This document shows, piece by piece, positions 1 to 35,530 of a DNA stretch of 35,530 nt (position 1 is the first letter of the stretch; each line of letters starts with the position of its first letter). This DNA comes from an uncultured Alphaproteobacteria bacterium (lineage in GTDB: Bacteria; Pseudomonadota; Alphaproteobacteria; Micropepsales; Micropepsaceae). Made by a program: the position numbers and the translations under genes. The DNA lies in NCBI GenBank assembly GCA_903902075.1, contig CAIUTH010000277.1, forward strand, positions 1 to 35,530. Reading direction: 5' to 3'. Under the pieces are notes generated by a model. That model was not told the DNA's origin. It was given only the letters and a program-made list of their open reading frames with translations, and made no database searches.

Positions 1-2
1 AG

Positions 3-935
3 CCGGGCATCACCGGCTGGGCCCAGGTGAATGGCGCACGCGGCGTCACGCCCACCACCGACGCCATGCGCACCCGCGTGAACCTGGACGCCTGGTATGT
101 CGAGCATGCCAGCCTGGCGCTGGACCTGCTGCTGGGCATACTGGCGGCGCTGATCGTCGAAAAGCTCGGGCCCATGATGCCGGTCCGCGTCCATGGCAGC
201 CGGCGCGCAACCATCGTCCCGCCCATTCCGCGCCCCATGCCGCGCGGCGCAAAGCCCAAATCGCCGGTCGCGGTGTGGAGCGGCCCGCCGATCCTGGGCG
301 AGATCAACGACACCGCCCAGCTGCGCGCCGCCGATTTCGTGCTGGATTATCCGGCCAGCAAATATTCCCACGCCATGCCGGGACTGGTGCGCCAGCTGGA
401 AGCCAGGGACGGCGAAGGTGCCGCCATCGTCGCCGTGACCTCGATCGACAGCGGCGAAAGCCGCAGCGCCATCGCCGTCAGCCTGGCGCGCGCCGCATCC
501 AAGATGGGCAAGAAGGCGATCATCGTGGATTGCGCGCCCCAGCGCCTGTCGTCCAGGGCCATCAACGCGCAAGTGAAGACCGGCCTGTATGACGTGCTGA
601 CCGGATCGGTGCCGCTGAACCAGGCGCTGGCCAAGGATCCGCGCGGAGAAACCTATCTGCTGGCCACGCCCAAGCGGCCGAAAAATGCCGTCACCATGTT
701 CCAGTCGCGACCCATGGAACGGCTGGTCTCGGTCCTGCGCGGCGGCGCCGATTTTGTGGTGATCGATTGCGGCCCTGTCGGCCAGGGCTCGAATGCGCCG
801 GTGATCGCGCGGCTGGCCGATGCCACCGTGCTGGTCTCCAAGCGCCAGGCGCTGCAAAGCCCCTTGATCGCCAAGGCGGCGCAGGTGCTGGAAAGCGCCA
901 AGGCGGCGCCGCTCGGGATCGTGATCACCAAGTGA
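3..935 (+). CDS. Sugar transferase fused to a degenerate BY-kinase-like ATPase (5' partial)
   Basis: The 5' end lies outside the window. The first visible residues, PGITGWAQVNG, are the C-terminal signature of bacterial sugar transferases (WcaJ/PglC-type phosphoglycosyl transferases), which load the first sugar phosphate onto undecaprenyl phosphate at the inner membrane. A hydrophobic stretch (visible residues about 37-53) and a Pro/Arg-rich linker follow. From about residue 135 the chain matches a polysaccharide tyrosine kinase (CpsD/Wzc cytoplasmic domain) in the same frame, with no stop between. The ATPase looks inactive: the Walker A position reads SGESRSA (residues 150-156) instead of GEGKST, so the lysine is replaced by Arg. 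Walker A' reads IIVDCAPQ without its second Asp. Walker B, FVVIDCGPV (251-259), is kept. There is no Tyr-rich tail; the protein ends at the last strand. It faces gltD convergently. Confidence 0.85.
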   Translation, partial: PGITGWAQVNGARGVTPTTDAMRTRVNLDAWYVEHASLALDLLLGILAALIVEKLGPMMPVRVHGSRRATIVPPIPRPMPRGAKPKSPVAVWSGPPILGEINDTAQLRAADFVLDYPASKYSHAMPGLVRQLEARDGEGAAIVAVTSIDSGESRSAIAVSLARAASKMGKKAIIVDCAPQRLSSRAINAQVKTGLYDVLTGSVPLNQALAKDPRGETYLLATPKRPKNAVTMFQSRPMERLVSVLRGGADFVVIDCGPVGQGSNAPVIARLADATVLVSKRQALQSPLIAKAAQVLESAKAAPLGIVITK

Positions 936-941
936 GGAGCG

Positions 942-981
942 ATTCGCCGTAAAGCGAATAAAACCGTCTAGTGGACGGTTT
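942..981. terminator. Two back-to-back hairpins between convergent genes
   Basis: The first hairpin is ATTCGC / GCGAAT (942-947, 954-959) with a six-base loop. The second is AAACCGTC / GACGGTTT (961-968, 974-981) with loop TAGTG. Read on the minus strand, the second is followed by GGTTTTATT, so it suits termination of the gltB-gltD transcript. The plus strand has no strong T tract, so terminator activity for the fusion gene is less sure. Confidence 0.6.
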
Positions 982-1014
982 CAAGCGACGAACGCCGCGA
1001 GCTCGGGCGAGCGG

Positions 1015-2466
1015 CTAGCGCGGCAGCTCCGAGCTGCCCATTAGGAACTCGTCTACGCCACGGGCGCATTGACGGCCCTCGCGGATCGCCCACACCACCA
1101 GCGACTGGCCGCGGCGCATGTCGCCGCAAGCAAAAATCTTGGACTTGCTGGTCTGGTAGTTGGTCAACGGCGCCTTGACGTTGCCGCGGGCATCCAACTC
1201 CACGCCGGACTGTTCGACCAGGCCGGCCTTGCGCGGGCCGACAAAGCCCATCGCCAGCAGCACCAGATCGGCCTTGAGCGTGAACTCGCTGCCGGGCACT
1301 TCGACCAGGTTCATCTTGCCACCGTCACCCAGCTGCCAGTCCACGCGGACACATTCCAGCGCCGTGATCTTGCCGTTCTCGCCAATGGCGCGCTTGGTCT
1401 GCACCGACCAGTCGCGCTCGCAGCCTTCCTGGTGCGAGGACGAGGTGCGCAGCTTCAGAGGCCAATCGGGCCACACCAGCTGCTTGTTCTCCTTCACCGG
1501 GGGCTGGGGCATGATTTCGAACTGGGTCACCGAAGCCGCGCCGTGCCGGTTGGAGGTGCCCACACAGTCCGAACCGGTATCGCCGCCGCCGATCACCACC
1601 ACATGCTTGCCCTTGGCCGACAGAGTGCCGTTCGGGGCGGCCTTGGCTTCCGGATCGCCCGCGACGCGCTTGTTCTGCTGCACCAGGAAATCCATGGCGA
1701 AATGGATGCCGTCCATCTCGCGGCCGGCCACTGGCAGGTCGCGCGGGTCTTCCGCGCCGCCCGACAGCACCACCGCATCATAATCGGCCTGCAGCATGTC
1801 CATCGAAACGGTGACGCCGACTTCGACATTGGTGCGGAACACCACGCCTTCGGCTTCCATCTGGCGCATGCGCCGGTCGATCAGATGCTTTTCCATTTTG
1901 AAGTCGGGAATGCCGTACCGCAGCAGGCCGCCGATGCGGTCGGACTTTTCAAACAGGGTGACACTGTGACCGGCGCGCGCCAATTGCTGGGCGGCGGCCA
2001 TGCCGGCGGGGCCGGAGCCCACCACCGCCACGGTCTTGCCGGTCTTCCTGGGCGCCATGACTGGCTGGATCCAGCCTTCTTCCCAGGCGCGGTCCACGAT
2101 CTGGCATTCGATGGTCTTGATGGTGACCGGGCTGTCGATGATGTTCAGGGTGCAGCTGGCCTCGCAAGGCGCGGGACAGATGCGGCCGGTGAATTCGGGG
2201 AAATTGTTGGTAGAGTGCAAACTCTCGGACGCGGTGCGCCACTGGTCGCGATAGACCAGATTGTTCCAGTCGGGGATCAGGTTATTGACCGGGCAGCCAT
2301 TGTGGCAAAAGGGAATGCCGCAATCCATGCAGCGCGCCGCCTGCTTGGCTACTTCCGGCGCCGGCAGGTTATTGACGAACTCTTTATAGTTGTTGATGCG
2401 CGCTTCCGGCTTTTCAGCAGGGCGCTCGGCGCGTTCAATTTCCAGAAAACCTGTGATCTTGCCCAT
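1015..2466 (-). CDS. gltD: Glutamate synthase [NADPH], small (beta) subunit
   Basis: The beta subunit of NADPH-GOGAT passes electrons from NADPH through FAD and iron-sulfur clusters to the large subunit for glutamate formation. The 483-residue product has the usual family length. The N-terminal cysteine clusters are visible at C46, C49, C54, C58 and C97, C101, C105. The FAD-binding GSGPAG motif lies at about residues 150-155 and the NADPH-binding GGGDTGSD in the middle. The C-terminal [17 protein letters not shown] closes the flavin site. The chosen start, MGKITGF, matches the conserved N-terminus; an in-frame extension of 35 residues runs back into gltB and is rejected. Only five bases separate it from the gltB stop, so the two are one operon. 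The paired 46-58 and 97-105 Cys motifs are intact. Confidence 0.97.
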
Positions 2467-2471
2467 GTCTC

Positions 2472-5400
2472 TTATTCCGCGGCGATGGCGGCGCGCGCCT
2501 TCATGTCGGTGAGCGCCTTGGCATAGTCGGACGGCATCACCTTGACGAACTTCGCCAAGCTTGCGTCCCAATTGTCCAGCAGATGCTTGGCGCGGGCGCT
2601 GCCGGTGTGCAGCAGGTGACGTTCCACCAGGATGCGCAACCGTTCCGCGTCGAAGGCGAGCAGGTCGCCCATGCCCGGATCGGCCACGCTGACCGAGCGC
2701 TGCTTGGGCAGTCCCGGATGATCGCCGCCTTCGGCAGGTGCGATCCTTTCCAGCTTGACCATCGCCAGGTTGCAGCGTTGCTCGAAAGTGCCTTCCTCAT
2801 CGAGGACATAGGCGACGCCGCCCGACATACCGGCGGCGAAATTGCGCCCGGTCTTGCCCAGCACCACCACCACGCCGCCCGTCATGTATTCGCAGCCATG
2901 ATCGCCCGTGCCTTCCACAACGCAGATGGCGCCGGAGTTGCGCACGGCAAAGCGTTCGCCCGCCACGCCATGGAAATAGGCTTCGCCGGCGATGGCACCA
3001 TACAGCACCGTGTTGCCGACAATGATGTTTTCGGCCGGGTCGCGGGAAAGCCCCGCCGGCGGCTTGACCACGATGCGCCCACCCGACAGGCCCTTGCCGA
3101 CATAGTCGTTGGCATCGCCCGTCAGTTCGATGGAAATGCCGCGCGCCAGGAAGGCGCCAAAGCTCTGCCCCACCGTGCCGGTGAACTTCACGCTGATCGT
3201 GTCCTCGGGCAGGCCTGCATGGCCATGGCGCCGGGCCACTTCGCCCGACAGCATGGCGCCGACGGTACGGTCCACGTTGCGCACGCTGCGCTCCAGCCGC
3301 ACCGGCTGGCCATGTTCGATCGAAGGCTTGGCGGCGATGATCAGATCGTGATCTAGCGCCGATTCTAGGCCGTGATTCTGCTTTTCCTTATGATGGATGG
3401 CGACGCCCGGCTTGGGCGTGACGCTGTAGAGGATGCGGCCCAGGTCGATGCCCTTGGCCTTCCAGTGCGACACGGCCTTGTTCATGTTGAGCTTGTCCAC
3501 CCGGCCGATCATCTCGTTCAGGGTGCGGAAGCCCAGGTTCGCCATGATGACGCGCAGTTCCTCGGCCACGAAGAAGAAGTAGTTGATCACATGCTCGGGC
3601 TGGCCGGTGAAGCGCTTGCGCAGCACCGGGTCCTGGGTGGCGACACCCACCGGGCAGGTGTTGAGATGGCACTTGCGCATCATGATGCAGCCCGAGGCGA
3701 TCAGGGGCGCGGTGGCGAAGCCGAACTCGTCGGCGCCCAGGAGCGCCCCGATGGCCACGTCGCGGCCGGTGCGCAGACCGCCATCGACCTGCACCGCCAC
3801 GCGGCCGCGCAGGCCATTCAGCACCAATGTCTGCTGGGTTTCGGCCAGGCCGATTTCCCAAGGCGAACCGGCATGGGTCAAAGATGTCAGCGGCGATGCG
3901 CCCGTGCCGCCTTCAAAGCCGGAAATGGTGATGTGATCGGCGCGGCACTTGGCGACGCCGGCCGCGACCGTGCCCACGCCCACTTCCGACACCAGCTTGA
4001 CTGAGATGCGCGCCTTCTGATTGACGCTCTTCAAGTCGCGGATCAGCTGCGCCAGGTCTTCGATGGAATAGATATCGTGATGCGGCGGCGGCGAGATCAG
4101 GCCCACGCCGGGCGTGGAATGGCGCACCTTGGCGATGTTGGCATCGACCTTGTGGCCGGGCAGCTGACCGCCTTCACCGGGCTTGGCGCCCTGGGCCATC
4201 TTGATCTGGATGTCGTCGGCATTGACCAGGTATTCGGCAGTGACGCCGAAGCGGCCCGACGCCACCTGCTTGATCGCCGAGCGCATGGAATCGCCATTGG
4301 CCATCGGCTTGAAGCGGTCGGCTTCCTCGCCGCCTTCGCCGGTGTTGGAGCGGCCGCCGATGCGGTTCATGGCGATGGCGAGGGTGGTGTGCGCCTCGCG
4401 GCTGATGGAGCCGAAGCTCATCGCGCCGGTGGAGAAACGCTTGACGATTTCATTGGCAGGCTCGACTTCATCCAGCGGCACGCTGTCGCCGACCTTGAAC
4501 TGCATCAACCCGCGCAAAGTCAGCAGGCGCTCGGACTGCTCGTTGATCTGCTGGGCGAACAGTTCGTATTCCGCCGGATTGTTGCCACGCACGGCGTGCT
4601 GCAGGCGGGACACCGAATCGGGCGTCCAGGCATGGTCTTCGCCGCGCAGGCGGAAGGCATAATCGCCGCCGACATCCAGCATGTTGCGATAGATCGGATT
4701 GTCGCCGAACGCGTCCCTGTGACGGCGCACGCATTCCTCGGCGATCTCTTTCAAACCGATGCCTTCGATGGTCGAGGCGGTGCCGGTGAAGTATTTCTGG
4801 ATGAAGTCGGTGGACAGGCCCACGGCGTCGAAGATCTGCGCGCCGCAATAGGACTGGTAGGTGGAGATGCCCATCTTGGACATCACCTTCAGCACGCCCT
4901 TGCCGATCGCCTTGATGTAGTTCTTCTGCACTTCGTAGGGCTTGAGGGCCAGGCCCTGGCGCACCCGGATCTGCTCGAGCGTTTCGAACGCCAGATAGGG
5001 ATTGATGGCTTCGGCGCCGTAGCCGGCCAGCACGCAGAAATGATGGACTTCGCGCGCTTCGCCGGTTTCCACGACAAGACCGGTCTGCATGCGCAGGCCC
5101 TGGCGCACCAGATGATGATGCACCGCCGCCGTCGCCAGCGCGGCGGGGATCGGAATACGGTCGGCGCTGACGGCGCGATCCGACAGGATCAGAATGTTGT
5201 TGTCCGCCAGCACCGCATCGGTTGCGTTCAGGCAGATGCGCTGCACGGCATTGGACAGACCTTCGGCGCCTTCGGATGCCGGCCAAGTGCAATCGATGGT
5301 GCCAGTCCGGAAGGCACCATCCACCAGTTCGGAAATCGAGCGTATCTTTTCCACATCGGCGTTGGTCAGCACCGGCTGGAGAACTTCCAGCCGCTTGTGG

Positions 5401-7228: not shown

Positions 7229-7282
7229 GCAGTAAATGCTTAGCCATGCAATTTGAGAGTTATTCACAACAAGTGGCCTGCC

Positions 7283-7310
7283 TTGACTCCCCCGAGAGCA
7301 GAAGCATTAT
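7283..7310 (+). promoter_or_regulatory. Candidate sigma-70 promoter of the imuA operon
   Basis: The -35 element is TTGACT (7283-7288, five of six matches to consensus), then a 16-base spacer, then the -10 element CATTAT (7305-7310, four of six). Transcription would start near 7317-7320, only a few bases before the imuA ATG at 7321. That implies a leaderless or near-leaderless mRNA and fits the absence of a Shine-Dalgarno sequence there. Confidence 0.55.
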
Positions 7311-7311
7311 A

Positions 7312-7326
7312 GAACATAACATGAAC
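7312..7326. promoter_or_regulatory. LexA operator (SOS box) overlapping the imuA start
   Basis: GAACATAACATGAAC is GAAC-N7-GAAC, the exact reverse complement of the alphaproteobacterial LexA direct repeat GTTC-N7-GTTC. It lies two bases after the candidate -10 element and includes the imuA ATG (7321-7323). LexA bound here would block the predicted transcription start. The identity of the downstream genes, a known SOS cassette, strongly supports the call. Confidence 0.85.
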
Positions 7327-8070
7327 AATACAGAAAAAATCGCGGAATTACGCCATTTTCTAGCGCGCTATGACCTGCCCCAGGACAGGCCGCCACTCCC
7401 ATTGGGGGATTCACAGGCCGATGCGGTTTTGGGCGGGGGACTGCGACCTGGTGCCCTGCATGAAGTCTTTGCCGGGAACTGGAGCGCCGGCGGCTTTGCC
7501 GTCGCGTTGGCGATCCTGGCGGCCAAGAGCAAACCCCTGTTCTGGGTGCGTCCGGATTACGAAGCCATGGAGTATGGCGCGGTATCGCCGAACGGGCTCG
7601 CGGAACTGGGCGGTGATCCGCGTCAGCTGATTCTGGTGCGCACACGCAATGCCGCCGAGGCCTTGTCGGCAACCGCCGACATCCTGGCCTGTCCGCATGC
7701 CGGCGCGCTGCTGCTGGAATTGAACGGCATGCCCAAATGCCTGGATCTGGTGGCCAGCCGCCGCCTGGCCTTCGCGGCGAATGAAAGCGGCGTGACGGCG
7801 GTGATGCTGCGCGAAGGCGCAGAGACAGAACCCAGCGCGGCGCTGACCCGCTGGCAGGTCTCATCGGCGCCATCGCGCGCCGATGACGATGACTGGGGAA
7901 ATCCGGTTTTCGACGCAGCCCTGGTCCGCCACCGCACCGGCGGGCTGGGACACTTTCTTCTGACATGGAATCCCGAACATGCCGCATTCGACACGGCGGA
8001 TACTGGCGCTGTGGTTGCCGCGCCTGCCCACCGACCGGCTTACCCGCAAGAGCAAAGGCGCGCCGTTTAA
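7321..8070 (+). CDS. imuA: ImuA, SOS-induced mutagenesis cassette protein
   Basis: This 249-residue RecA/SulA-like protein is the first member of the imuA-imuB-dnaE2 cassette, which performs error-prone translesion synthesis after DNA damage. Family features include the N-terminal helix (KIAELRHFLAR), the GGGLRPGALHEVFAG segment in place of a Walker loop, and the VAS.RRLAFAANESGVTAVMLR core. The start at 7321 gives the typical short N-terminus. An in-frame ATG at 7246 would add 25 residues, but it lies upstream of the predicted promoter. The 3' end overlaps imuB by 92 bases; both frames look conserved across the overlap, so translational coupling is likely. Control by LexA is visible in the operator at the start codon. 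ImuA is thought to act through contact with ImuB. Confidence 0.88.
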   Translation: MNNTEKIAELRHFLARYDLPQDRPPLPLGDSQADAVLGGGLRPGALHEVFAGNWSAGGFAVALAILAAKSKPLFWVRPDYEAMEYGAVSPNGLAELGGDPRQLILVRTRNAAEALSATADILACPHAGALLLELNGMPKCLDLVASRRLAFAANESGVTAVMLREGAETEPSAALTRWQVSSAPSRADDDDWGNPVFDAALVRHRTGGLGHFLLTWNPEHAAFDTADTGAVVAAPAHRPAYPQEQRRAV

Positions 8071-9511
8071 AGCGCCACTGATCGTCAGCGGCAAAAGCGG
8101 CAACGCCCTGCATGTTCATGCACTGGATCTGCGGGCGCAAAGACTGGGACTCTATAAAGGTCAGCCCCTGGCAAATGCCCGCGCCATGGTACAGCCGCTG
8201 ACCATCGTGCCGGCGGATGAAAAAGCCGATGCCATGCTGCTGGACGGGATCGCCGACTGGAGCGACCGCTTCACGCCGCTGGTGACATTGGATACGCCGG
8301 ACGGGCTGTTTTTGGACATCACGGGCGCGGCGCACCTGTTCGGCGGCGAAGCCGCAATGCTGGCGCATGTCACAGGATTGATCGCCAAACAGGGCTTTGT
8401 CGTGCGCGGCGCCATTGCCGGGACGTCATTGGCGGCGCATGCCCTGGCGCGCTTTGCGCCCAGCATCGTGCCGGCACGTGGCGAGGCGCAGGCGGTCGCA
8501 CCACTCCCAATCACCGCGCTGGAGTGCGGCGACAAGATTCTGCGCGCCCTGCGCCATGCCGGATTGAAAAACATCGGCATGGTGGCGGAGCGCCTGCGCA
8601 GCGAATTGTCGGAACGGCTGGGCAAGGCTTTCGTCACCCGCCTGAAAGTGATGCTGGGCGCGGAAGAACAGCCGCTCAGTCCGCGCCGTGCCCTGCCCGA
8701 CCTGATGGCCGAGCAACGCTTTGCCGAACCCATCGTCACCCAGGACGCCATCGCCGCTTCGCTATTCAGCCTGGCGCAATCCTTGAGCGAAATCCTGGAA
8801 CGCGAGGGCCGCAGCGCACGCGTGCTGGAAGCGGTGTTCTTTCGCGCCGACGGCAAGGTCGACCGCATAGCGATCAAGACCGGCGAACCGTTGCGCGATC
8901 CCAAGATCATCATGCGGCTCTTGAACCAGAAGCTGGACGCCTTGGCCGATCCGCTGGATCCCGGCTTCGGTTTCGATCTTGTCAGGCTGGAAGCCTTGCT
9001 GGCGGAGGAGACCAAACCCGGCACGATCAGCTTTGACCATGACGAGAATGCCCGCCGCCAGATCGCTTTCCTGGTGGACCGATTGAGCGTGCGCTTCGGC
9101 GAGCATCGGGTGCAGCGTTTCATCCCGCAGGACACCCACATCCCCGAAGCTGCAGGGATCGCGATACCAGCCCAGGACCGCGATTTCGCGCCGGGAAACT
9201 GGGTTTTAAAGCGCCAGCCCGGCGATCCGCCTCGCCGCCCGCTGCGGCTTCTGCAGAAACCGGAAGAAGTCAGCGCCATGGCCTCGGTGCCAGATGGACC
9301 ACCCATGCGCTTCCGCTGGCGGCAATGCCTTCATGAAGTGGCGCGCGCCGAAGGCCCGGAACGCGTCGCCATGGAATGGTGGCGCAGCACCGGATTGGCG
9401 CGCGATTATTTTCGCGTCGAAACCGAAACGGGCCAGCGCTTCTGGCTGTATCGCGATGGACCGTATGGCGGCCTGGCGCCGCGCTGGTATGTCCAGGGCC
9501 TGTTCGCATGA
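7979..9511 (+). CDS. imuB: ImuB, catalytically inactive Y-family polymerase-like protein
   Basis: ImuB is the hub of the mutasome that brings DnaE2 to stalled forks. The 510-residue chain begins with RRILALWLPRLPTDRL, the ImuB form of the Y-family HIDMDAFYAS motif, so the first metal-binding Asp is missing. The second catalytic motif (SIDEAYLD in active enzymes) reads DTPDGLFLD at 105-113, so the key Glu is replaced by Gly. This fits the known loss of polymerase activity in ImuB. The C-terminus, WYVQGLFA, is the usual family ending. A canonical QLxLF beta-clamp motif was not found. The start ATG at 7979 has GGAAT eight bases upstream and lies inside imuA. Its stop overlaps the dnaE2 start as ATGA. 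Confidence 0.93.
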   Translation: MPHSTRRILALWLPRLPTDRLTRKSKGAPFKAPLIVSGKSGNALHVHALDLRAQRLGLYKGQPLANARAMVQPLTIVPADEKADAMLLDGIADWSDRFTPLVTLDTPDGLFLDITGAAHLFGGEAAMLAHVTGLIAKQGFVVRGAIAGTSLAAHALARFAPSIVPARGEAQAVAPLPITALECGDKILRALRHAGLKNIGMVAERLRSELSERLGKAFVTRLKVMLGAEEQPLSPRRALPDLMAEQRFAEPIVTQDAIAASLFSLAQSLSEILEREGRSARVLEAVFFRADGKVDRIAIKTGEPLRDPKIIMRLLNQKLDALADPLDPGFGFDLVRLEALLAEETKPGTISFDHDENARRQIAFLVDRLSVRFGEHRVQRFIPQDTHIPEAAGIAIPAQDRDFAPGNWVLKRQPGDPPRRPLRLLQKPEEVSAMASVPDGPPMRFRWRQCLHEVARAEGPERVAMEWWRSTGLARDYFRVETETGQRFWLYRDGPYGGLAPRWYVQGLFA

Positions 9512-12500
9512 GCTATGCCGAACTGGCCGTCACCACCAATTATTCCTTCCTGCGCGGGGCTTCGCATCCGGGCGACTTCGTCCTCCAGGCGGCCAGCCTG
9601 GGCTATCCTGCCATCGGCATCGCCGACCGTAACAGTTTGGCGGGCGTGGTGCGGGCCTATGAGGCGTGGAGCAAGCTGGAGAAGGCGGATCGCCCGTGGC
9701 TGTTGATCGGGGCGCGGCTGGTATTCAACGACGGCACTCCCGACATCATCGCCTATCCGCGGGACCGCACCGCCTATGGCCGGCTTTGCCGGCTTCTCAG
9801 CCTCGGCAAGTCGCGCGCCCCCAAGGGCGAATGTTTTCTGTCCCTTCCCGACCTGCTCGATCCGCAATATCGCGAGGGCCTGCTGCTGATCGTGATGCCC
9901 GGCCCTGACACCGGTGTGTCGCTGCTAATGCAACTGGGAGCGGATACATGGCTGGCCGCCGCCATGCTGTATGGCGGCGAGGATCGCCGGCGCTTGCGTG
10001 ATCTGAAGCGCCTGTCGCGCGAAGCGCGTGTCCCGCTGATCGCCGTCAATGACGCACTCTATCACCATCCCGGCCAGCGGGAATTGCAGGACATCGTCAC
10101 CTGCATCCGCGAGCATGTGAGTTTGCAGGAGGCCGGCAAAAGGCTGGAAGCCAATGCCGAACGCCACCTGAAACCGCCCGGCGAAATGGCGCGGCTGTTC
10201 CGCAATTGCCCCGAGGCCGTCGCCGAAAGCCTGCGCTTTTCCGCTTCCATCAACTTCACCCTGGACATGCTCAAGCAGAACTACCCGCATGAGCCGGTAC
10301 CGCCGGGCAAGACGGCCGACGGCCATCTGCGCGATCTGACCAAGGCGGGCCTCAAGCGCCGATATCCGCAAGGCACGCCCTTCAAGGTGGCACGGCTGGC
10401 GGTAAAAGAACTGCGCTTCATCGCCTCCCAGGAGATCGCGCATTATTTCCTCACCGTGCACGACATCGTGAAATATGCCGAAGGCAAAGAAATTCTGTGC
10501 CAGGGACGCGGCAGCGCCGCCAATTCCGCCGTCTGTTATGTGCTGGGCGTCACCGCCGTGGACCCCGCCACCTTCGATGTGCTGTTCGAACGCTTCCTCA
10601 GCGCCGAGCGCAAGGAACCGCCCGACATCGACGTGGATTTCGAGCATGAGCGGCGCGAGGAGGTCATTCAGTATATCTACCAGCGCTATGGCCGCCGCCG
10701 CGCCGCCCTGACCGCCACCGTGATCTGCTACCGCTCGCGCAGCGCCATCCGCGAAGTGGGCAAGGTGTTCGGCCTGAGCGAGGACGTCACCGGCAAGCTG
10801 GCGGACACGGTGTGGGGTCATCACGGCGGCGAACTGAAAGAGCATCAGGTCATGGAGAGCGGCTATGACCTCGCCAACCATGCGGTCGAACGCGCCGTGC
10901 ATTTCGCGGGCAAAATTTCCGGCTTCCCGCGCCATCTGTCCCAGCATGTCGGCGGCTTTGTGCTGACCGACGATTTTCTGGACACCATCGTGCCCATCGG
11001 CCCGGCCGCGATGGACGATCGCAGCTTCATCGAATGGGACAAGGACGACCTGGACAGCTTGCGCATCATGAAGGTCGATGTGTTGGCGCTGGGAATGCTG
11101 ACCTGCATCCGCAAGACCTTCGACCTGATCCATGCCTATTCGCGCGGCACAAAGCCGAAATACACCGTGGCCAGCGTTCCGAAGGAGCGGCCTTACGTCT
11201 ACGAAATGCTGCAACGGGCCGACACCATCGGCGTGTTCCAGGTCGAAAGCCGCGCCCAGATGAGCATGCTGCCGCGCCTCAAGCCCCGTGAATTCTACGA
11301 TCTTGTGGTGGAAGTGGCGATCGTGCGCCCCGGCCCCATCCAGGGCGGCATGGTGCATCCCTATCTCAAGCGCCGAACATTGCAGCGCGACAATCCGGGC
11401 ATGGTGTTTGATTACCCCAAGCCCGGCCTAGGACACCGGCAGGACGAACTGCGGGATGTCCTGCACAAGACCCTGGGCGTACCCCTGTTCCAGGAACAGG
11501 CGATGAAGCTGGCCATCGTGGCCGCCAAATTCACCCCCGACGAGGCCAATGGCCTGCGCCGCGCCATGGCGACTTTCCGCCATGTCGGCACCATCGGCAC
11601 CTTCGAGCGCAAGTTCATCGATCGCATGGTCGAGCGCGGCTATGACCAGGAGTTCGCGGAAAACTGTTTCGAGCAGATCAAGGGGTTCGGCTCTTACGGC
11701 TTTCCCGAAAGCCATGCCGCCAGCTTCGCGCTGCTGGTCTATATCTCCGCCTGGATCAAGAAACATCATCCCGCGGCCTTCGCGGCGGCGCTGCTCAATT
11801 CCCAGCCGATGGGGTTTTATGCGCCGGCCGAGATCGTGCGCTGCGCCCGGGAGAACGGCAAAGTGACGGTGCTGCCGCCGGATGCCGCTTTCAGCCATTG
11901 GGACTGCACCCTGGAGCGAAACCAAAGCGGTGACATCTGCCTGCGCCTTGGCCTGCGCCAGATCGATGGCTTGAAGGAAGAAGACGCAAACACGATCAGC
12001 AACGCGCGGGGCTATGGCTATCGCAGCTTTGCCGATTTCGTGCGCCGCACCGCGGTCCCCAAGCACGCACTGGTCACCTTGGCCGAGGCCGATGCCTTTC
12101 GCAGTTTCGGGCTGGACCGGCGCGAGGGATTGTGGGCGGTGCGGCGTTTGCCCGACGATGATCCTTTGCCGCTGTTCGCGCCGCGCGCCGCGCCCGAGCA
12201 GGGCGCCGAACATATCGCGCCTTTGCCCGCCATGCCGCTGAGCGAACATGTGCTGGCCGACTACCAGGCCACGCGCCTGTCGCTGAAGGGCTATCCCACC
12301 CAGTTCCTGCGGCCCGGCTTCGAGGCCGAAGGCATTACAAGCTGCGGGGCGCTAAAGAACCTGAAAGAGGGCGCGGCCGTGCGCTGCGCCGGGGTGGTGC
12401 TGGTGCGCCAGTGTCCGGGCGAAGGCACCACCGTCTTCATCACCCTCAGCGACGAAACCGGGATCTGCAATGTGGTGATCTGGGAACGCGTCTTCCGCCA

Positions 12501-12714
12501 GTTCAGAAAGGAAGCCATGGGCTCGCGCCTGCTGCTGGCCGAAGGCCTGGTGCAAAAAAGTCCCGAAGGGGTCATCCACCTGATGGCCCATACCCTGACC
12601 GACCGCAGCGCCGACCTGAAACAGCTGTCGGGCGATGCAGTGCCGCGGCACTCCGCGGTCCACCGCCATCCCCGCAATGTGCGGGTTCTGCCGCCCTCGC
12701 GTGATTTTCACTGA
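9508..12714 (+). CDS. dnaE2: Error-prone DNA polymerase DnaE2
   Basis: DnaE2 is the C-family polymerase that copies past lesions with ImuA and ImuB. The chain is 1068 residues, the usual DnaE2 length. An N-terminal PHP domain (YAELAVTTNYSFLRGASHP) leads into the palm, where D373 and D375 in PPDIDVDF and D524 in MKVDVLALG are the expected catalytic acids. A helix-hairpin-helix region follows. An OB fold near the C-terminus contains GTTVFITLSDETGICNVVIW. The protein ends with the family hallmark RVLPPSRDFH. The start is fixed by the ATGA overlap with imuB; an in-frame upstream extension reads through imuB and is rejected. The stop codon sits inside a perfect 25-base palindrome. Confidence 0.97.
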   Translation: MSYAELAVTTNYSFLRGASHPGDFVLQAASLGYPAIGIADRNSLAGVVRAYEAWSKLEKADRPWLLIGARLVFNDGTPDIIAYPRDRTAYGRLCRLLSLGKSRAPKGECFLSLPDLLDPQYREGLLLIVMPGPDTGVSLLMQLGADTWLAAAMLYGGEDRRRLRDLKRLSREARVPLIAVNDALYHHPGQRELQDIVTCIREHVSLQEAGKRLEANAERHLKPPGEMARLFRNCPEAVAESLRFSASINFTLDMLKQNYPHEPVPPGKTADGHLRDLTKAGLKRRYPQGTPFKVARLAVKELRFIASQEIAHYFLTVHDIVKYAEGKEILCQGRGSAANSAVCYVLGVTAVDPATFDVLFERFLSAERKEPPDIDVDFEHERREEVIQYIYQRYGRRRAALTATVICYRSRSAIREVGKVFGLSEDVTGKLADTVWGHHGGELKEHQVMESGYDLANHAVERAVHFAGKISGFPRHLSQHVGGFVLTDDFLDTIVPIGPAAMDDRSFIEWDKDDLDSLRIMKVDVLALGMLTCIRKTFDLIHAYSRGTKPKYTVASVPKERPYVYEMLQRADTIGVFQVESRAQMSMLPRLKPREFYDLVVEVAIVRPGPIQGGMVHPYLKRRTLQRDNPGMVFDYPKPGLGHRQDELRDVLHKTLGVPLFQEQAMKLAIVAAKFTPDEANGLRRAMATFRHVGTIGTFERKFIDRMVERGYDQEFAENCFEQIKGFGSYGFPESHAASFALLVYISAWIKKHHPAAFAAALLNSQPMGFYAPAEIVRCARENGKVTVLPPDAAFSHWDCTLERNQSGDICLRLGLRQIDGLKEEDANTISNARGYGYRSFADFVRRTAVPKHALVTLAEADAFRSFGLDRREGLWAVRRLPDDDPLPLFAPRAAPEQGAEHIAPLPAMPLSEHVLADYQATRLSLKGYPTQFLRPGFEAEGITSCGALKNLKEGAAVRCAGVVLVRQCPGEGTTVFITLSDETGICNVVIWERVFRQFRKEAMGSRLLLAEGLVQKSPEGVIHLMAHTLTDRSADLKQLSGDAVPRHSAVHRHPRNVRVLPPSRDFH

Positions 12715-12725: not shown

Positions 12726-12757
12726 TCAAACAAAGCCGGACTTTCACTGAACCGGCT
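12726..12757 (-). terminator. Intrinsic terminator of the export lipoprotein gene
   Basis: On the minus strand AGCCGG and CCGGCT pair (12752-12757 with 12734-12739) around a twelve-base loop holding the stop codon of the lipoprotein gene. The T-rich tail TTTGTTTG (12733-12726) follows. Confidence 0.55.
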
Positions 12758-13088
12758 GGGACAGCCGCAAGGCTAGCGGCGGCGCCACCCGTTCAACCAG
12801 AACCTGCGGATTCTTCAGGTACCCGGCGGCCAGCAGCTGGCGCAGCCTTTCCTGCAACGCTGCCGGGCTGAGGCCTGCCGCCGGCACTGCGCCCAGCAGC
12901 TCCAGCCGCACATTGCCATCGCTGTTCACCACAAAGCCGCCGCTGAGTTCCTCTTCCCCCGCCACGGTGATGCGCAGGCCATCGCCCGGCACCAGCACAT
13001 CGGCTTGTGTCGCCGGGGACGTCTCCGGGGCCGACAGGCACCCAGCCAGCCCGAGGCACAAGCCAAGGCTCAGTAGAATGGGTCGCAT
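12744..13088 (-). CDS. Minimal Wza-like polysaccharide export lipoprotein
   Basis: This 114-residue protein has a lipoprotein signal peptide with lipobox LAGC (Cys17) and then one Poly_export (PF02563-type) domain: VLVPGDGLRITVAGEEEL, a NSDGNVRLELLG strand pair, LSPAALQERLRQLL, and NPQVLVERV. Full-length Wza/BexD/GumB-type outer-membrane proteins continue with SLBB domains and a C-terminal helix; here the chain ends after the first domain. It may be a small accessory partner of a translocon rather than a pore. There is no clear Shine-Dalgarno before the ATG at 13088. An alternative in-frame ATG at 13115 lies right where the candidate promoter would start transcription. It is divergent from the membrane-protein pair and convergent with dnaE2. 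Confidence 0.82.
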   Translation of the reverse strand: MRPILLSLGLCLGLAGCLSAPETSPATQADVLVPGDGLRITVAGEEELSGGFVVNSDGNVRLELLGAVPAAGLSPAALQERLRQLLAAGYLKNPQVLVERVAPPLALRLSQPVQ

Positions 13089-13122
13089 GACAAAACCGTG
13101 ACCAAAGCGAATCATTTCCCCT

Positions 13123-14716: not shown

Positions 14717-16047
14717 TGAACCCGCGCCTGTTCGACACCGTGCTGTGGAGCGTGCTGGCCGTGACGGGCCTGGCCGTGCTGTGGCTGCTGACGCGCAACA
14801 TCATGGCGATACCGCTGCATGTGCCGCTGGACCCCAATGAGGGCTGGAACGCCGCCCATGCAACCGCCGCGGCGCTGTATCCGCCGCCGCAGGCGTTGAT
14901 GGTCAACAATTACCCGCCCCTCTCCTTCTATCTCGTGCGCATCCTGATCCGGCATGGCGCCGATCCGGTGATCGTGGGCCGCTGGGTTTCGCTCGCCGCC
15001 TTCCTGTGCGCCGGCGCAGGAATCGCGGCTGTGCTGCGTGCATTGGCGTGCCACATTCGCGGCATCGCCTGCGCCGTGCTGTTTTTCGCGGCGGTGCTGC
15101 TGATCGGCAGCAACTATGTAGGAATCGACGATCCCCAGATGCTGGGCCATGCGCTGCAACTGGCGGCGCTGCTCTTGCTGCTGCGCGAACGCCCCGTGGC
15201 CTCGGCACTGCTGTTCGCCGTCAGTCTTTTCGTGAAACACAATCTGCTGGCACTGCCCCTGGCCTCGGCCGCGTGGCTGCTGCTCCAGGACCGCCGCGCC
15301 GGGCTGGCATTTCTGCTCTGGGGTACGGCCTTTGCGCTGGCCGGTCTGGTCGCGTTTCAGCTTGGCTTCGGCACCAGCCTGCTGGGGCAATTGGTGTCGC
15401 CGCGGCTGTCATCCTTCGCCAATCTGACAGCCGCCGCCGGGCACCTGTGGTGGATGATATTGCCGGGCATCGCCATCGCGGGATTGTGGCCCGACCGCAG
15501 CGCCCTGCTTTGCGCGCTGTACGCCGCCGCCGCGTTGGGGCTGGGATTGCTATTCGCCGCCGGCGACGGAGTGGACGCCAACGCCTTTTTCGATCTGGCC
15601 ATCGCCCTGTCGCTGGGCCTGGGGCTTACGATCGAAGGCGGCCGCTGGCCCATCATGGCGGCGGCATCCCTGCTGCCGCCGCTGCTGTTCCTGGGCTTTC
15701 ATTTCCAAGACAACAATTACTTCTTCACCAGAAGCTTTGCCGCCGAGTCGGCGCGCGACATCGTTTTTCTGCAATTACGGCCCGGTCCGGCCCTGTGCGA
15801 CCAGATTTCGCTGTGCCTGTGGGCCGGCAAAAAAGCCGCAGTGGATGTCTTCAATATCGGCGAGCAGATCAAGACCGGCGCCCGCGATCCCGCCGACCTG
15901 ACCTCGATGATCACGTCCCATCATTTCAAGGTGCTGCAATTGCAGGATCTGGATTCGCTGGGCCCGGCGGTGGGCGGCGCCATCCGGAAAAATTACCGCG
16001 CCGACCATGCGGGCGAAAACGGCACGTTTCTGGTGCCGCTACCCTAG
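14707..16047 (+). CDS. Multi-pass membrane protein, GT-C/PMT-like, unassigned
   Basis: This 446-residue integral membrane protein has one N-terminal helix followed by a loop with PLDPNEGWNAAHA and NNYPPLSFYLVRIL. An Asp/Glu pair in the first outer loop, followed by a Tyr-Pro-Pro motif, resembles the GT-C (GT39/PMT/ArnT) layout, in which a polyprenyl-linked sugar is the donor. About nine hydrophobic segments fill residues 90-345. A short soluble C-terminal domain (about 350-446) follows. It overlaps the preceding gene by ten bases; an ATG at 14716 (TGATG overlap) is an equally good start and would drop three residues. The two products probably work together. The stop TAG overlaps the stop of the convergent synthase gene on the sequence CTAG. 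Confidence 0.75.
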   Translation: MRLMNPRLFDTVLWSVLAVTGLAVLWLLTRNIMAIPLHVPLDPNEGWNAAHATAAALYPPPQALMVNNYPPLSFYLVRILIRHGADPVIVGRWVSLAAFLCAGAGIAAVLRALACHIRGIACAVLFFAAVLLIGSNYVGIDDPQMLGHALQLAALLLLLRERPVASALLFAVSLFVKHNLLALPLASAAWLLLQDRRAGLAFLLWGTAFALAGLVAFQLGFGTSLLGQLVSPRLSSFANLTAAAGHLWWMILPGIAIAGLWPDRSALLCALYAAAALGLGLLFAAGDGVDANAFFDLAIALSLGLGLTIEGGRWPIMAAASLLPPLLFLGFHFQDNNYFFTRSFAAESARDIVFLQLRPGPALCDQISLCLWAGKKAAVDVFNIGEQIKTGARDPADLTSMITSHHFKVLQLQDLDSLGPAVGGAIRKNYRADHAGENGTFLVPLP

Positions 16048-19000
16048 GCCCTGGCCTTGACGGTGCCGTGGCGCTCCAGCTTGCCCCACCCGACAAAGGG
16101 TCCGCGCAGCGCCGTCCACAAGGACCGCAACACCACGTAATACATGATCTGGCGATAGCCGAAGCGCTGCAGCGGCAGCCACCAGAGCAGCCGCCAGTCC
16201 TCGCCTTTTTCCAGCACAAAGCCGGTCATCGCCGCCAGCAGGTCCACCACAATGAAGATCGCATAATACACACCCACGATCTGCAGATTGTCCGTCGTAT
16301 ACGTCCCGACATGCTGGACATAGTTGATGTATTCGGCGACCAGTTGCCACAGCAGAAGCAGATCCGCCACCGGCGCCAGGGTCGTGAGCAGGATCTGGAA
16401 CAGCCATACCTGCGGCAGCGCCACCAAACCCAGCTCGCCATATTCGGCATTGAAGGTGATGCCGCGATACTTCCATAGACATTGCAGGGTGCCATAGGCC
16501 CAGCGGAAACGCTGCTTGGCCAGGCCCCCGACCGTGGCAGGGGCTTCGGTCCAGGCCACGGCAGCCGGATCGAAATGCACGCGGTATCCTTCGGTTTGGA
16601 TGTGGATGGTCAGGTCCTGGTCTTCGGCCAGCGTATCGGCGGGAAAGCCGCCCAGCTCACGCAACACATTGCGCCGCCAGGCACCCACCGCACCGGGTAC
16701 CACCGTCAGCGTGTCCAGCGCCGACAGCGCGCGGCGTTCCAGGTTCTGCGCCACGATATATTCCAGCGCCTGCCAGCGGGTGATCATGTTGATGCGATTG
16801 CCGACCTTGGCATTGCCCGCCACCGCGCCGATGCTGGGATCGCTGAACCAGCGCACCAGCCGCGAGATGGTGGTGCTTTCGAACTGGGTGTCGGCATCCA
16901 ACGCCACCACCACCTGGCCTTGCGCATTCTCCAGGCCCACATTCAGGGCATTGGCCTTGCCGCCATTGGGAATGGAGATCACGCCCACGCGCGGGTCGTT
17001 CATGAAATGCGACCGGACGATGTAGGCGGTGTGATCCTTGGAGCCGTCATCGATCACCAGCACGTCCATGTTGGAATAGTCGCTGGCCAGAATCCGCTCG
17101 ACGGTGGTGACGATAACCTTCTCTTCGTTGAAGGCAGGGATCAGCACCGTCACCTTCTGGGCCGCGTCGCCGCCGGCCATGGGCGTGCCCGGACCCTGCG
17201 CCTTTTTCCACAGCGCCAGCCCGGCCAGCACGAACAGCCGCGCCACGCCCAGCACGATCGCGCCCAGGAAGCAGTAATAAAGAAACTGGGACAGGTAGCT
17301 GATGGTCAGGAACACCGCGCGGTCGGCATACAGCGAGATGGTGAAGGGAAGAGGCGGCATCACCTCGTCGCGCTTGAAGCCGCCAAGCTCGGACAACGGC
17401 ACGAAACTGTATCCCCTGGCCCGCAGGGTATCGATCAGCTGGGGCAACAGCGTCAGGGTCTTGCTGCGGTCGCCGCCGGAATCATGCATCAGGATGACAT
17501 TGCCGCGCAGGTCGGGATTGGGATTGGTCAGCCCCTTGTTCACCAGCGCCATCATTTGCGGCACGGTGTAGTTCTCCCAGTCTTGGGTATCGAGATTGGC
17601 GGTGACCTCGATATAGCCCAGCGCCTGCGCCGCCTTGATCGGCTCCAGCTCGTCGGCATCCGACGGGCTGGCATCGCTGAGATAGGGCGAGCGGAAGAAG
17701 CGCATCGAACGGCCGGTCAGCGCCTGGAACAGCCGCTGGGTGGCGTTCAGTTCCAGCCGCACCGCCGCCGCCGGCACTTCGGCCAGATTGGGATGGGTGT
17801 AGGTGTGGTTGCCCACTTCATGCCCGCTGGCCAGCACCCGCTGCACCAGGCCCGGATGCGCTTCCATCGCCGAGCCGATCATGAAGAAAGCCGCTGGCAC
17901 CTTCTTTTCCTTCAGGATGGACAGGATGGTCGGCGTCCAGGCGGGATCGGGGCCGTCATCGAAGGTCAGCGCCAGCTTCATGGGCAGCGCGCCAGCGCGG
18001 CGGATCACATAGCTGGTGGGCATGCTGTCATAGCTTTCGTCCACGATGTCGCCGGTGGCCGCTTCCATGGTCAGGCTGCGCGCACCCAGTGCCGGATCGC
18101 TTTCCACCCGCAGGATTTCGCCGAACCCGTCATAATCCGGATTCTCAAGATCGTTCTGGATGTGCTTCAGGCTTTCCGGCGGCCCAGCGCCATAACGGCG
18201 GCCCATCAGCGGCAGTATGGAGGGATCCTCATAGCCCAGCTTCCACAAGGCATAGCCCGCGGGGCGATACGGATCGGCGGCGTGTATCTGGTTGAAGGCG
18301 GTGACGCCGTCCAGGAACCAGACCTGATGTTCGCCGTCGACATCGTTATAGCTGAAGTGCGGGTTGTTGGTGGCCGGGTCGAACAGCACCGTGGCGCTGG
18401 TGTCGCGCGCCGTGGCCATCGCATATTCAAAGCTCAGAACCGTGGCGGGTTTCTTGGCCGCCCAGTCATAGGCCCAGGAACCAAGGGTGACGATGGTGCT
18501 GTCGGCGGGCAGCTGGCGCATTCGCTTGTCCAGCGTCTTTTCGTACCAGTCCTGCGCCGAGATGGAACCGGCCGGACCGTCCTGGTCCACCTGGTCGTAG
18601 GCCATCAGCATCGTGTAATCGACGATGTCGGCGAAGGTGCGATAGGGCCAGTCTTCGTCATCGAAGGGCACGGCCTGGGCGATGATCCAGTCATGCGGCG
18701 CAAATTCCGCCGACATGCGGGTGAGAAAAGCCTCCAGGTCCTTGTGGGCGCTCTTGGGCACTTCCTCAAAGTCGATGGTCACGCCCTGCAGCTTGTTGGC
18801 GGCGATGAACGCCATGATGTCGTTCAGCAATTTGTCCGAACGCGCCGGATCGGCGAGGAGCTTGGCCAGCCCTGCCCCGTCCCAGCGCCCGCCGGCAGCA
18901 TTCTGGACCACCGGCAGCACTGCCACGCTTGGCTTGTTGGTGCGGATGTAGTCCAGCGCGCGCCGGTCCATCCATTTCGTCGTCAGGTGCATGTCGTCGC

Positions 19001-19466
19001 CATCGAGGGTCATCCAGACCGGCAGCACCCAGTCCAGCGTCTTCAGCGAACGCTTCAAAGACGGCCAGGCGGGATCATCCTTCCCCTGGAAGTTGGTATA
19101 GAAGCCGATGGCCAGGGCGCGGCCATCCTGCGGCTTGAGGATGGCGGGCAGCGCGCGGCTGGGCAGTGCGCTTTGCGCTTTGCGCAGCCGCGCGATTTCT
19201 TCCAGCCGGCGCTTTTGCGCCGCCGCCGCCAGCCGCTGAGCGCGCGCCAGCAGGCCGGGTTTCTGGGCCCGCTTGAGCACATTGGCCGGGGGCGCGGCCA
19301 CGCCCCGGCCCGGCAAGTCTAGGCCGGTGACCGGCGGGGCCAGCGCCAGGCTGGTGACAAAGCCCACCAGGATGACCAAGGCGGCGATGCCCACGACCCA
19401 GGCAACCACCTTGATGCGGGCGGCGCGGCGCCCGGAAGCGTCGAAGAAGATGGGCTTGTTGGCCAT
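16044..19466 (-). CDS. GH18-like / polysaccharide deacetylase / GT2 synthase fusion
   Basis: The 1140-residue protein carries three activities of exopolysaccharide synthesis. An N-terminal membrane anchor (about 18-43) and a coiled-coil-like Ala/Arg-rich stretch lead to a GH18-like domain (about 115-425) with GVTIDFEE (D232, E234) and LMAYDQ. A NodB-type deacetylase domain (about 490-695) has TFDDGPD (501-507), NHTYTH (553-558), RSPY (592-595) and MHD (660-662). A second membrane segment (about 715-752) precedes a processive GT2 domain with DAD (857-859), ED (948-949) and QRFRW (985-989). C-terminal membrane helices follow. GH18 plus deacetylase plus synthase resembles PgaB and PgaC in one chain, so a partly deacetylated beta-linked GlcNAc-type polymer is a reasonable guess. 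Start MANKPIFFD has AAGG just upstream. The upstream in-frame extension of 29 residues looks non-coding. Confidence 0.9.
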   Translation of the reverse strand: MANKPIFFDASGRRAARIKVVAWVVGIAALVILVGFVTSLALAPPVTGLDLPGRGVAAPPANVLKRAQKPGLLARAQRLAAAAQKRRLEEIARLRKAQSALPSRALPAILKPQDGRALAIGFYTNFQGKDDPAWPSLKRSLKTLDWVLPVWMTLDGDDMHLTTKWMDRRALDYIRTNKPSVAVLPVVQNAAGGRWDGAGLAKLLADPARSDKLLNDIMAFIAANKLQGVTIDFEEVPKSAHKDLEAFLTRMSAEFAPHDWIIAQAVPFDDEDWPYRTFADIVDYTMLMAYDQVDQDGPAGSISAQDWYEKTLDKRMRQLPADSTIVTLGSWAYDWAAKKPATVLSFEYAMATARDTSATVLFDPATNNPHFSYNDVDGEHQVWFLDGVTAFNQIHAADPYRPAGYALWKLGYEDPSILPLMGRRYGAGPPESLKHIQNDLENPDYDGFGEILRVESDPALGARSLTMEAATGDIVDESYDSMPTSYVIRRAGALPMKLALTFDDGPDPAWTPTILSILKEKKVPAAFFMIGSAMEAHPGLVQRVLASGHEVGNHTYTHPNLAEVPAAAVRLELNATQRLFQALTGRSMRFFRSPYLSDASPSDADELEPIKAAQALGYIEVTANLDTQDWENYTVPQMMALVNKGLTNPNPDLRGNVILMHDSGGDRSKTLTLLPQLIDTLRARGYSFVPLSELGGFKRDEVMPPLPFTISLYADRAVFLTISYLSQFLYYCFLGAIVLGVARLFVLAGLALWKKAQGPGTPMAGGDAAQKVTVLIPAFNEEKVIVTTVERILASDYSNMDVLVIDDGSKDHTAYIVRSHFMNDPRVGVISIPNGGKANALNVGLENAQGQVVVALDADTQFESTTISRLVRWFSDPSIGAVAGNAKVGNRINMITRWQALEYIVAQNLERRALSALDTLTVVPGAVGAWRRNVLRELGGFPADTLAEDQDLTIHIQTEGYRVHFDPAAVAWTEAPATVGGLAKQRFRWAYGTLQCLWKYRGITFNAEYGELGLVALPQVWLFQILLTTLAPVADLLLLWQLVAEYINYVQHVGTYTTDNLQIVGVYYAIFIVVDLLAAMTGFVLEKGEDWRLLWWLPLQRFGYRQIMYYVVLRSLWTALRGPFVGWGKLERHGTVKARA

Positions 19467-19608
19467 GGGCCTTAGATACAACTTGCCGGGGCTGGCGCGA
19501 AGAGGGTGCGCGTCATGGCGTCGCCACCCTGGGGTACATGGCGGGATACGCATAGCAAGCTGCGGCGTTCATGCTAATGAGGCATATAGCGATTCAGGGT
19601 GTTCCAAC

Positions 19609-35254: not shown

Positions 35255-35530
35255 CTAGATCAAGCCGCCAACGCTGCGGATGGCGGCGGTCGCGACATGG
35301 ACCTCTTCGCGCACACCCTGGCGCTTGTGTTTGCCCAGGATCAGCACGGCCTTGACGCTGCCCGCATATTCGCCCGGCTGGGCGGCGCGCACGGCCGTGA
35401 CCTTGGCCACATCGATCTTCACCGCCGCGCCGTCGGGACGGGTCAGCTTCACCACGTCGGCCGCGCTGGCGACCTTCAGGCTGCGGGTGATGCCGCCGAC
35501 ATAGGCGCGGGTTTCGGCCGGCAGACGGCC
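35255..35530 (-). CDS. Unrecognised protein, C-terminal fragment (5' partial)
   Basis: The open frame continues past the window edge; 91 residues are visible. I do not recognise the family. It reads as a small beta-rich domain: TRAYVGGITRSLKVASAADVV, then a KLTRPDGAAVKIDVAKVTAVRAA segment and KAVLILGKHKRQGVREEVHV, ending SVGGLI. There are no membrane segments, Cys motifs or obvious catalytic residues in the visible part. It is upstream of the M3 peptidase gene on the same strand with 51 bases between, so the two could be cotranscribed. Confidence 0.6.
   Translation of the reverse strand, partial: GRLPAETRAYVGGITRSLKVASAADVVKLTRPDGAAVKIDVAKVTAVRAAQPGEYAGSVKAVLILGKHKRQGVREEVHVATAAIRSVGGLI

Follow-up and report, generated by a model that had tools for sequence, protein, structure and literature searches.

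A disarmed BY-kinase domain of a probable Wzz-type co-polymerase and its very probably false fusion to a phosphoglycosyl transferase at the end of a metagenome contig

According to PMC12004946, Wzc of Escherichia coli and CapAB of Staphylococcus aureus are active kinases whose C-terminal tail is rich in Tyr, and EcpK/EpsV of Myxococcus xanthus and HfsB/HfsA of Caulobacter crescentus are cases in which a BY pseudokinase serves a PCP-2 co-polymerase. EcpK and HfsB are proposed there to be scaffolds that guide the co-polymerase by binding alone, and HfsB is reported to contribute to the stability of HfsA. The same paper mentions, after Cuthbertson et al., PCP-2 variants that carry a BY pseudokinase domain in the same chain, among them SMc01795 of Sinorhizobium meliloti and Mlr8439 of Mesorhizobium. 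No fusion of a transferase with a BY-kinase was reported in the literature titles and abstract openings that were searched.

The kinase-like domain described here fits, by its sequence, a BY pseudokinase of the EcpK/HfsB kind, being BY-kinase-like with the catalytic motifs and the Tyr tail missing. It shares with EcpK and HfsB the degenerate Walker motifs, the lack of a Tyr-rich tail, and the association with a Wzz-type co-polymerase, but EcpK and HfsB are separate proteins, whereas in most of the relatives that we read the pseudokinase lies in one chain with the Wzz part. In this respect, it is closer to SMc01795 and Mlr8439, which are likened to it by their description and also combine a Wzz part and a disarmed kinase in one polypeptide in Alphaproteobacteria, although the present clade comes from another genus and is known here mostly from draft genomes. 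The domain order Wzz-TM-kinase is also that of E. coli Wzc. Unlike Wzc and CapAB, described as active and with a Tyr-rich tail, the domain lacks both the Walker A Lys and the tail. BY pseudokinases serving co-polymerases have already been described, and the present clade is, by analogy, of a known kind.

The stretch of DNA analysed (the window, 35,530 nucleotides) is the entire contig C277 (G000:C277) of a fragmented genome of an uncultured alphaproteobacterium of the Micropepsaceae (386 contigs, 2.68 Mb), and the frame at positions 3-935 of its forward strand thus begins at the contig end. A previous sequence-only reading had taken this frame for one gene in which the C-terminus of a phosphoglycosyl transferase runs into a BY-kinase-like ATPase. 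The frame itself is as described, since the ORF listing and the translation show 310 uninterrupted codons, with neither a frameshift nor a stop between the two parts in the given sequence. Both domains were also recovered in a Pfam scan, with PF02397 (Bac_transf) matching residues 1-44 of the frame (profile positions 130-169 of 179) and AAA_31 matching residues 142-260. TIGR01007 matched residues 140-310 with 73.7 bits, which is below its cut-off of 108.05, and the best match to a solved structure was CapA1-CapB1 (4jlv; residues 93-310, E 3.1e-10). What could not be confirmed is that the frame is a single gene, because it starts at the contig end, its bases 1-128 copy another contig of the same genome (C113), and the part from about base 125 on corresponds to the last part of a gene that in relatives encodes a Wzz-BY-kinase. 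The features of this region are as follows.

1-128, forward strand: misplaced copy of bases from near the 3' end of a gene for a monotopic phosphoglycosyl transferase (PGITGWAQVNG...LALDL), from its exact identity with C113:4704-4831.
114-128, forward strand: junction zone, in which the C113 transferase and the Wzz-kinase gene of the relative G036 are alike at 13 of 15 bases; the window leaves C113 at 129 and, read leftwards, first differs from G036 at 124.
129-935, forward strand: probable 3' end of a Wzz-BY-kinase (PCP-2a) gene, comprising the presumed end of the second transmembrane helix, a cytoplasmic linker, the BY-pseudokinase domain and the stop codon (933-935), from the match to G036 C49 and full-length relatives.
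450-470, forward strand: degenerate Walker A, SGESRSA, with an Arg codon (462-464) where BY-kinases have Lys, from translation and alignment.
528-536, forward strand: degenerate Walker A', DCA in place of DxD, from translation and alignment.
765-767, forward strand: Asp of Walker B, kept, from translation and alignment.

When window positions 1-400 were searched against the same genome, the first 131 bases recurred on C113 at 99%, and alignment showed that the two sequences are identical over 128 bases and diverge from base 129. The transferase gene on C113 is complete (227 aa) and has a normal end, and the next gene is WecG/TagA. It matches PF02397 with 218.7 bits over profile positions 1-178 of 179 and TIGR03025 with 300.2 bits, over the cut-off of 295.55, and is an ordinary member of the WcaJ/ExoY-type monotopic phosphoglycosyl transferases to which these two models belong, whereas the window holds only a fragment of about 42 codons near the 3' end of the gene. 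C113 is collinear with the corresponding regions of three relatives, G036 (96%, 3.7 kb), G035 (77%, 5.8 kb), and G015 (79%, 5.0 kb). Together, these features of C113 and its collinearity with relatives indicate that the genome itself has the normal gene order past the junction.

To the right of the junction, the window is 95.7% identical at the DNA level to contig C49 of G036, its nearest relative, over 790 bases, and collinearity with this contig extends over window positions 114-3000 at 92.6%. Upstream of the junction, the G036 frame leads not into a transferase but into DNA that differs very little from the GNVR part of the relative L068. The full proteins of L068, with a protein identity of 87%, and of G035, the two relatives scanned, contain Wzz, GNVR and AAA_31, the last being below the cut-off in G035. 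In 26 of the 29 loci read, the kinase part lies within a frame of 681-779 aa, the exceptions being L003 (390 aa, cut by a contig end), L009 (264 aa, with an internal stop) and L012 (236 aa). In L009 (G005 C12), a TAG codon is located inside the kinase-like part of the co-polymerase gene; the domain may be broken there, or the TAG may contain a wrong base.

At the junction, the transferase sequence CTGGCGCTGGACCTG faces the G036 co-polymerase sequence CTGCCGCTGGGCCTG, and the final CCTG is common to both. The breakpoint is most likely this CCTG, at 125-128, if the Wzz gene of the source genome reads as that of G036 does at this place. In G035, the DNA between the transferase and the co-polymerase contains five scanned frames with Pfam matches (WecG/TagA, two family 2 glycosyltransferases, GH10, and an ATP-grasp-like protein), and two more frames, among the part of the locus frames that was scanned, had no Pfam match.

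The rest of the source genome was searched for the missing pieces in its readable sequence, 19 of the 42 contigs examined (the window and 41 others) being mostly N. PF02706 was not found elsewhere, nor were the Wzz half and the genes expected between the transferase and the co-polymerase; for the latter, only the end of C113 was recovered, together with a match of 33 bases on C334 that is taken for chance. A survey of 42 contig ends from the 23 readable contigs showed that the sharing of more than 100 bases is confined to C277, at both of its ends, and to the C90 end paired with one of these, and that one other end shares 38 bases. At the right end of the contig, window positions 35392-35530 overlap the end of C90 by 139 bases, 138 of which are identical, and C90 is likely, from this overlap, to be the true neighbour of C277 on that side.

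Among 61 genomes searched in a first set, the source genome included, 52 had a match; besides C277, no match spanning the transferase and kinase parts was among those listed for the 60 relatives. A class sample of 385 genomes includes the source genome, overlaps the first set and was limited to at most five scored candidates per genome; in it, 116 genomes had a match with an E value of 1e-8 or lower, and none of the matches listed for the other 384 genomes spanned both parts. With no further spanning match listed in either set, the idea of a fusion conserved in the genus or the class was rejected. A scan of contigs gave seven loci, of which L072 matches the transferase part only and L073, which was aligned and then set aside, looks like a MinD/ParA protein. 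Of the 36 relatives from the same genus, 24 carry the transferase as a gene of its own that precedes the co-polymerase by 1.9-18.4 kb on one contig and strand, and G029 has a further pair of this kind at 24.9 kb. Other arrangements within 25 kb comprise five pairs on opposite strands and three that share a strand but have the transferase after the co-polymerase (G030, G044, and G016). Together with the intact transferase gene of the source genome, these separate genes leave the supposed attachment of the kinase to the initiating enzyme unsupported.

Pairs were also found in other families, in G047, where the transferase lies 17.5 kb ahead, and in G049, with 180 bases between the two. The G049 pair (L125, G049 C1:331000-336000, 706-3131) was considered as a fusion and rejected, as it consists of a complete transferase and a separate gene in two frames joined by an ATGA overlap, the TGA of the transferase overlapping the ATG of a kinase-like gene of 231 codons. 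The latter reads GVGASS at Walker A, without the Lys, has two Tyr in its last 35 residues, and scores 37.8 bits against TIGR01007, below the cut-off. Judging from this sequence, a transferase and a disarmed stand-alone kinase can adjoin as two genes, and the pair is a candidate worth a look for a coupling of initiation with a BY pseudokinase. The tie between initiation and length control through one polypeptide, which had been suggested for the window, finds no support in our data, and the G049 neighbours leave room for a looser link.

On these results, the frame very probably does not represent a genuine fused gene. Its two parts would stem from separate genes of a single exopolysaccharide locus that came to be linked where a metagenome contig has its left end, window bases 1-128 coming from the transferase gene and the rest being the end of the co-polymerase gene, whose 5' part would lie past the contig end. 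From the exact copy, the look-alike and the contig-end position, which are all read directly in the sequences, we infer that the join most likely arose in assembly or from chimeric reads, helped by the short look-alike. We hold with good confidence that such an artefact at the contig end stands in front of a genuine pseudokinase co-polymerase; it is favoured by the position of the join, its cover of only 128 bases, the intact order in the same bin, and the lack of a second case among the matches listed. Several observations speak against it. The frame is open across the join, which a random join would achieve with a chance of about 1 in 3, and four exact shared bases are too few for a k-mer overlap alone, so that a join of this length needs some chimeric or real reads, or a Wzz gene in the source genome that is more alike than that of G036. 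The failure to find the Wzz half and the intervening genes, weighed below, also counts against the artefact, as does the close pair of G049, although this consists of two genes.

As an alternative, some cells may have lost the DNA from the transferase to the co-polymerase by a deletion at the short direct look-alike (about 6-11 kb, a very rough estimate) while others kept the order seen on C113. The two genes do lie on the same strand and in the right order in relatives, the look-alike is found at the breakpoint, the join is in frame, and neither the Wzz half nor the genes in between were found in the genome, 19 of 42 contigs being mostly N. This absence is nevertheless weak evidence for a deletion, because C113 keeps the undeleted order past the junction and because of the unreadable contigs; with the join covered by just 128 bases at a contig end and no other genome with the same join among the matches listed, we regard a real deletion as improbable, and it would most likely have left the locus broken and not created a fusion that works. 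Far less credible still is that the junction exists in some cells and that a transferase-pseudokinase hybrid is made and works there, coupling polymer initiation to chain-length control through a phosphorylation-free scaffold. The open frame would allow it, the transferase would be nearly complete if the sequence upstream continued as on C113, and the overlapping genes of G049, with their kinase-like partner lacking the Walker A Lys, suggest a functional tie of such partners elsewhere. However, no match spanning both parts was among those listed for the 60 relatives and the other 384 genomes of the class, and the hybrid would lack the C-terminal residues of the transferase as well as nearly the whole Wzz part, of which only the end would remain. 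Its topology would also be a problem, since the transferase is a protein of the cytoplasmic face and the helix before the kinase domain crosses from the periplasm to the cytoplasm: with one such helix after the transferase, the kinase-like domain would come to lie on the wrong side, or insertion would fail. With the artefact as the preferred reading, a domain fusion that is probably false is removed from consideration, and the contig provides an example of how false fusions of this kind can arise at contig ends.

The proposal that the kinase is disarmed through the loss of the Walker A Lys, the second Asp of Walker A', and the Tyr cluster was borne out by SGESRSA, DCA, and the lack of any Tyr in the last 35 residues of the window protein. 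All three losses are common to six relatives, which together with the window make up the seven rows of the Arg clade described below. In the domain, dN/dS was 0.07 against G036 and 0.18 against L068 (264 codons each), and 0.38-0.49 against four more distant relatives. A simple decay of the window copy was rejected, as the same changes are present in six relatives and silent changes prevail; judged from these sequences, the disarmed kinase is genuine. Within the source genome, TIGR01007 matched three proteins, all below the cut-off, namely that of the window and frames of 274 aa and 405 aa that are taken, by length and score only, for MinD/CpaE-like proteins. No active BY-kinase was found over this cut-off elsewhere in the readable contigs (19 of 42 mostly N). 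Of the 60 genomes sampled for the genus, 24 carry a kinase that exceeds the same cut-off.

The relation between the tail and the Walker A Lys was followed in a motif table of 54 rows, the window included, from which eight rows with identical ends had been dropped. The rows were chosen by their likeness to the window or to TIGR01007, and the counts are no census. All 25 rows with at least three Tyr in the last 35 residues have the Lys. The 29 rows without a Tyr tail have Lys (14, counting L112, which is cut by the locus end so that its tail is not visible), Arg (8), Gly (4), Ala (1), Cys (1), or no letter (1) at this position. A tree was built from the 51 rows that remained after L009, whose frame shows no Walker A, the truncated L112 and the fragment L120 had been set aside. 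In this tree, 25 tailless rows form one clade with a support of 100/100, in which the residue is Lys in 12, Arg in 8, Gly in 4, and Ala in 1; a tailless row outside it, L098, sits on a long branch. The window belongs to a seven-row Arg clade (support 100/99), and the remaining Arg row (L014) and the rows with Gly or Ala are found elsewhere in the tailless clade. From these positions, the Walker A Lys has been lost more than once among the tailless proteins, the order of losses being unproven in a tree that is midpoint-rooted and has several open forks. The mixed Walker A residues make the order (tail before Lys) testable, and this clade of one genus offers a natural series of how a BY-kinase domain persists without catalysis.

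As for its function, the co-polymerase would consist of a Wzz periplasmic part, two transmembrane helices, and a cytoplasmic BY-pseudokinase, the latter being placed, from the domain order and the full-frame relatives, on the cytoplasmic side of the co-polymerase as in Wzc. An assembly and disassembly driven by phosphorylation is unlikely for a domain without the Lys, the DxD, and the Tyr tail. It is most likely that the co-polymerase works without tyrosine phosphorylation and that the kinase-like domain acts as a fixed cytoplasmic collar which would hold or guide the Wzz oligomer, as suggested by the loss of the Lys, the Asp, and the Tyr tail, by the predominance of silent changes, and by what has been proposed for EcpK/EpsV and HfsB/HfsA.

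Several other genes of the contig deserve mention. A short polysaccharide export protein (PF02563, with no other Pfam domain) is encoded at 12747-13109 on the reverse strand, about 12 kb from the pseudokinase, and is a possible outer-membrane partner of the co-polymerase. The three overlapping frames at 7246-12714 on the forward strand resemble an imuA-imuB-dnaE2 mutagenesis cassette, in that Y-family (IMS) domains occur in the second and the third carries DNA polymerase III alpha domains; the first frame matched nothing in Pfam, and only its position prompts the guess at its name. Finally, a single frame of 1169 aa at 16044-19553 on the reverse strand combines a GH18-like domain, a polysaccharide deacetylase, and a family 2 glycosyltransferase.
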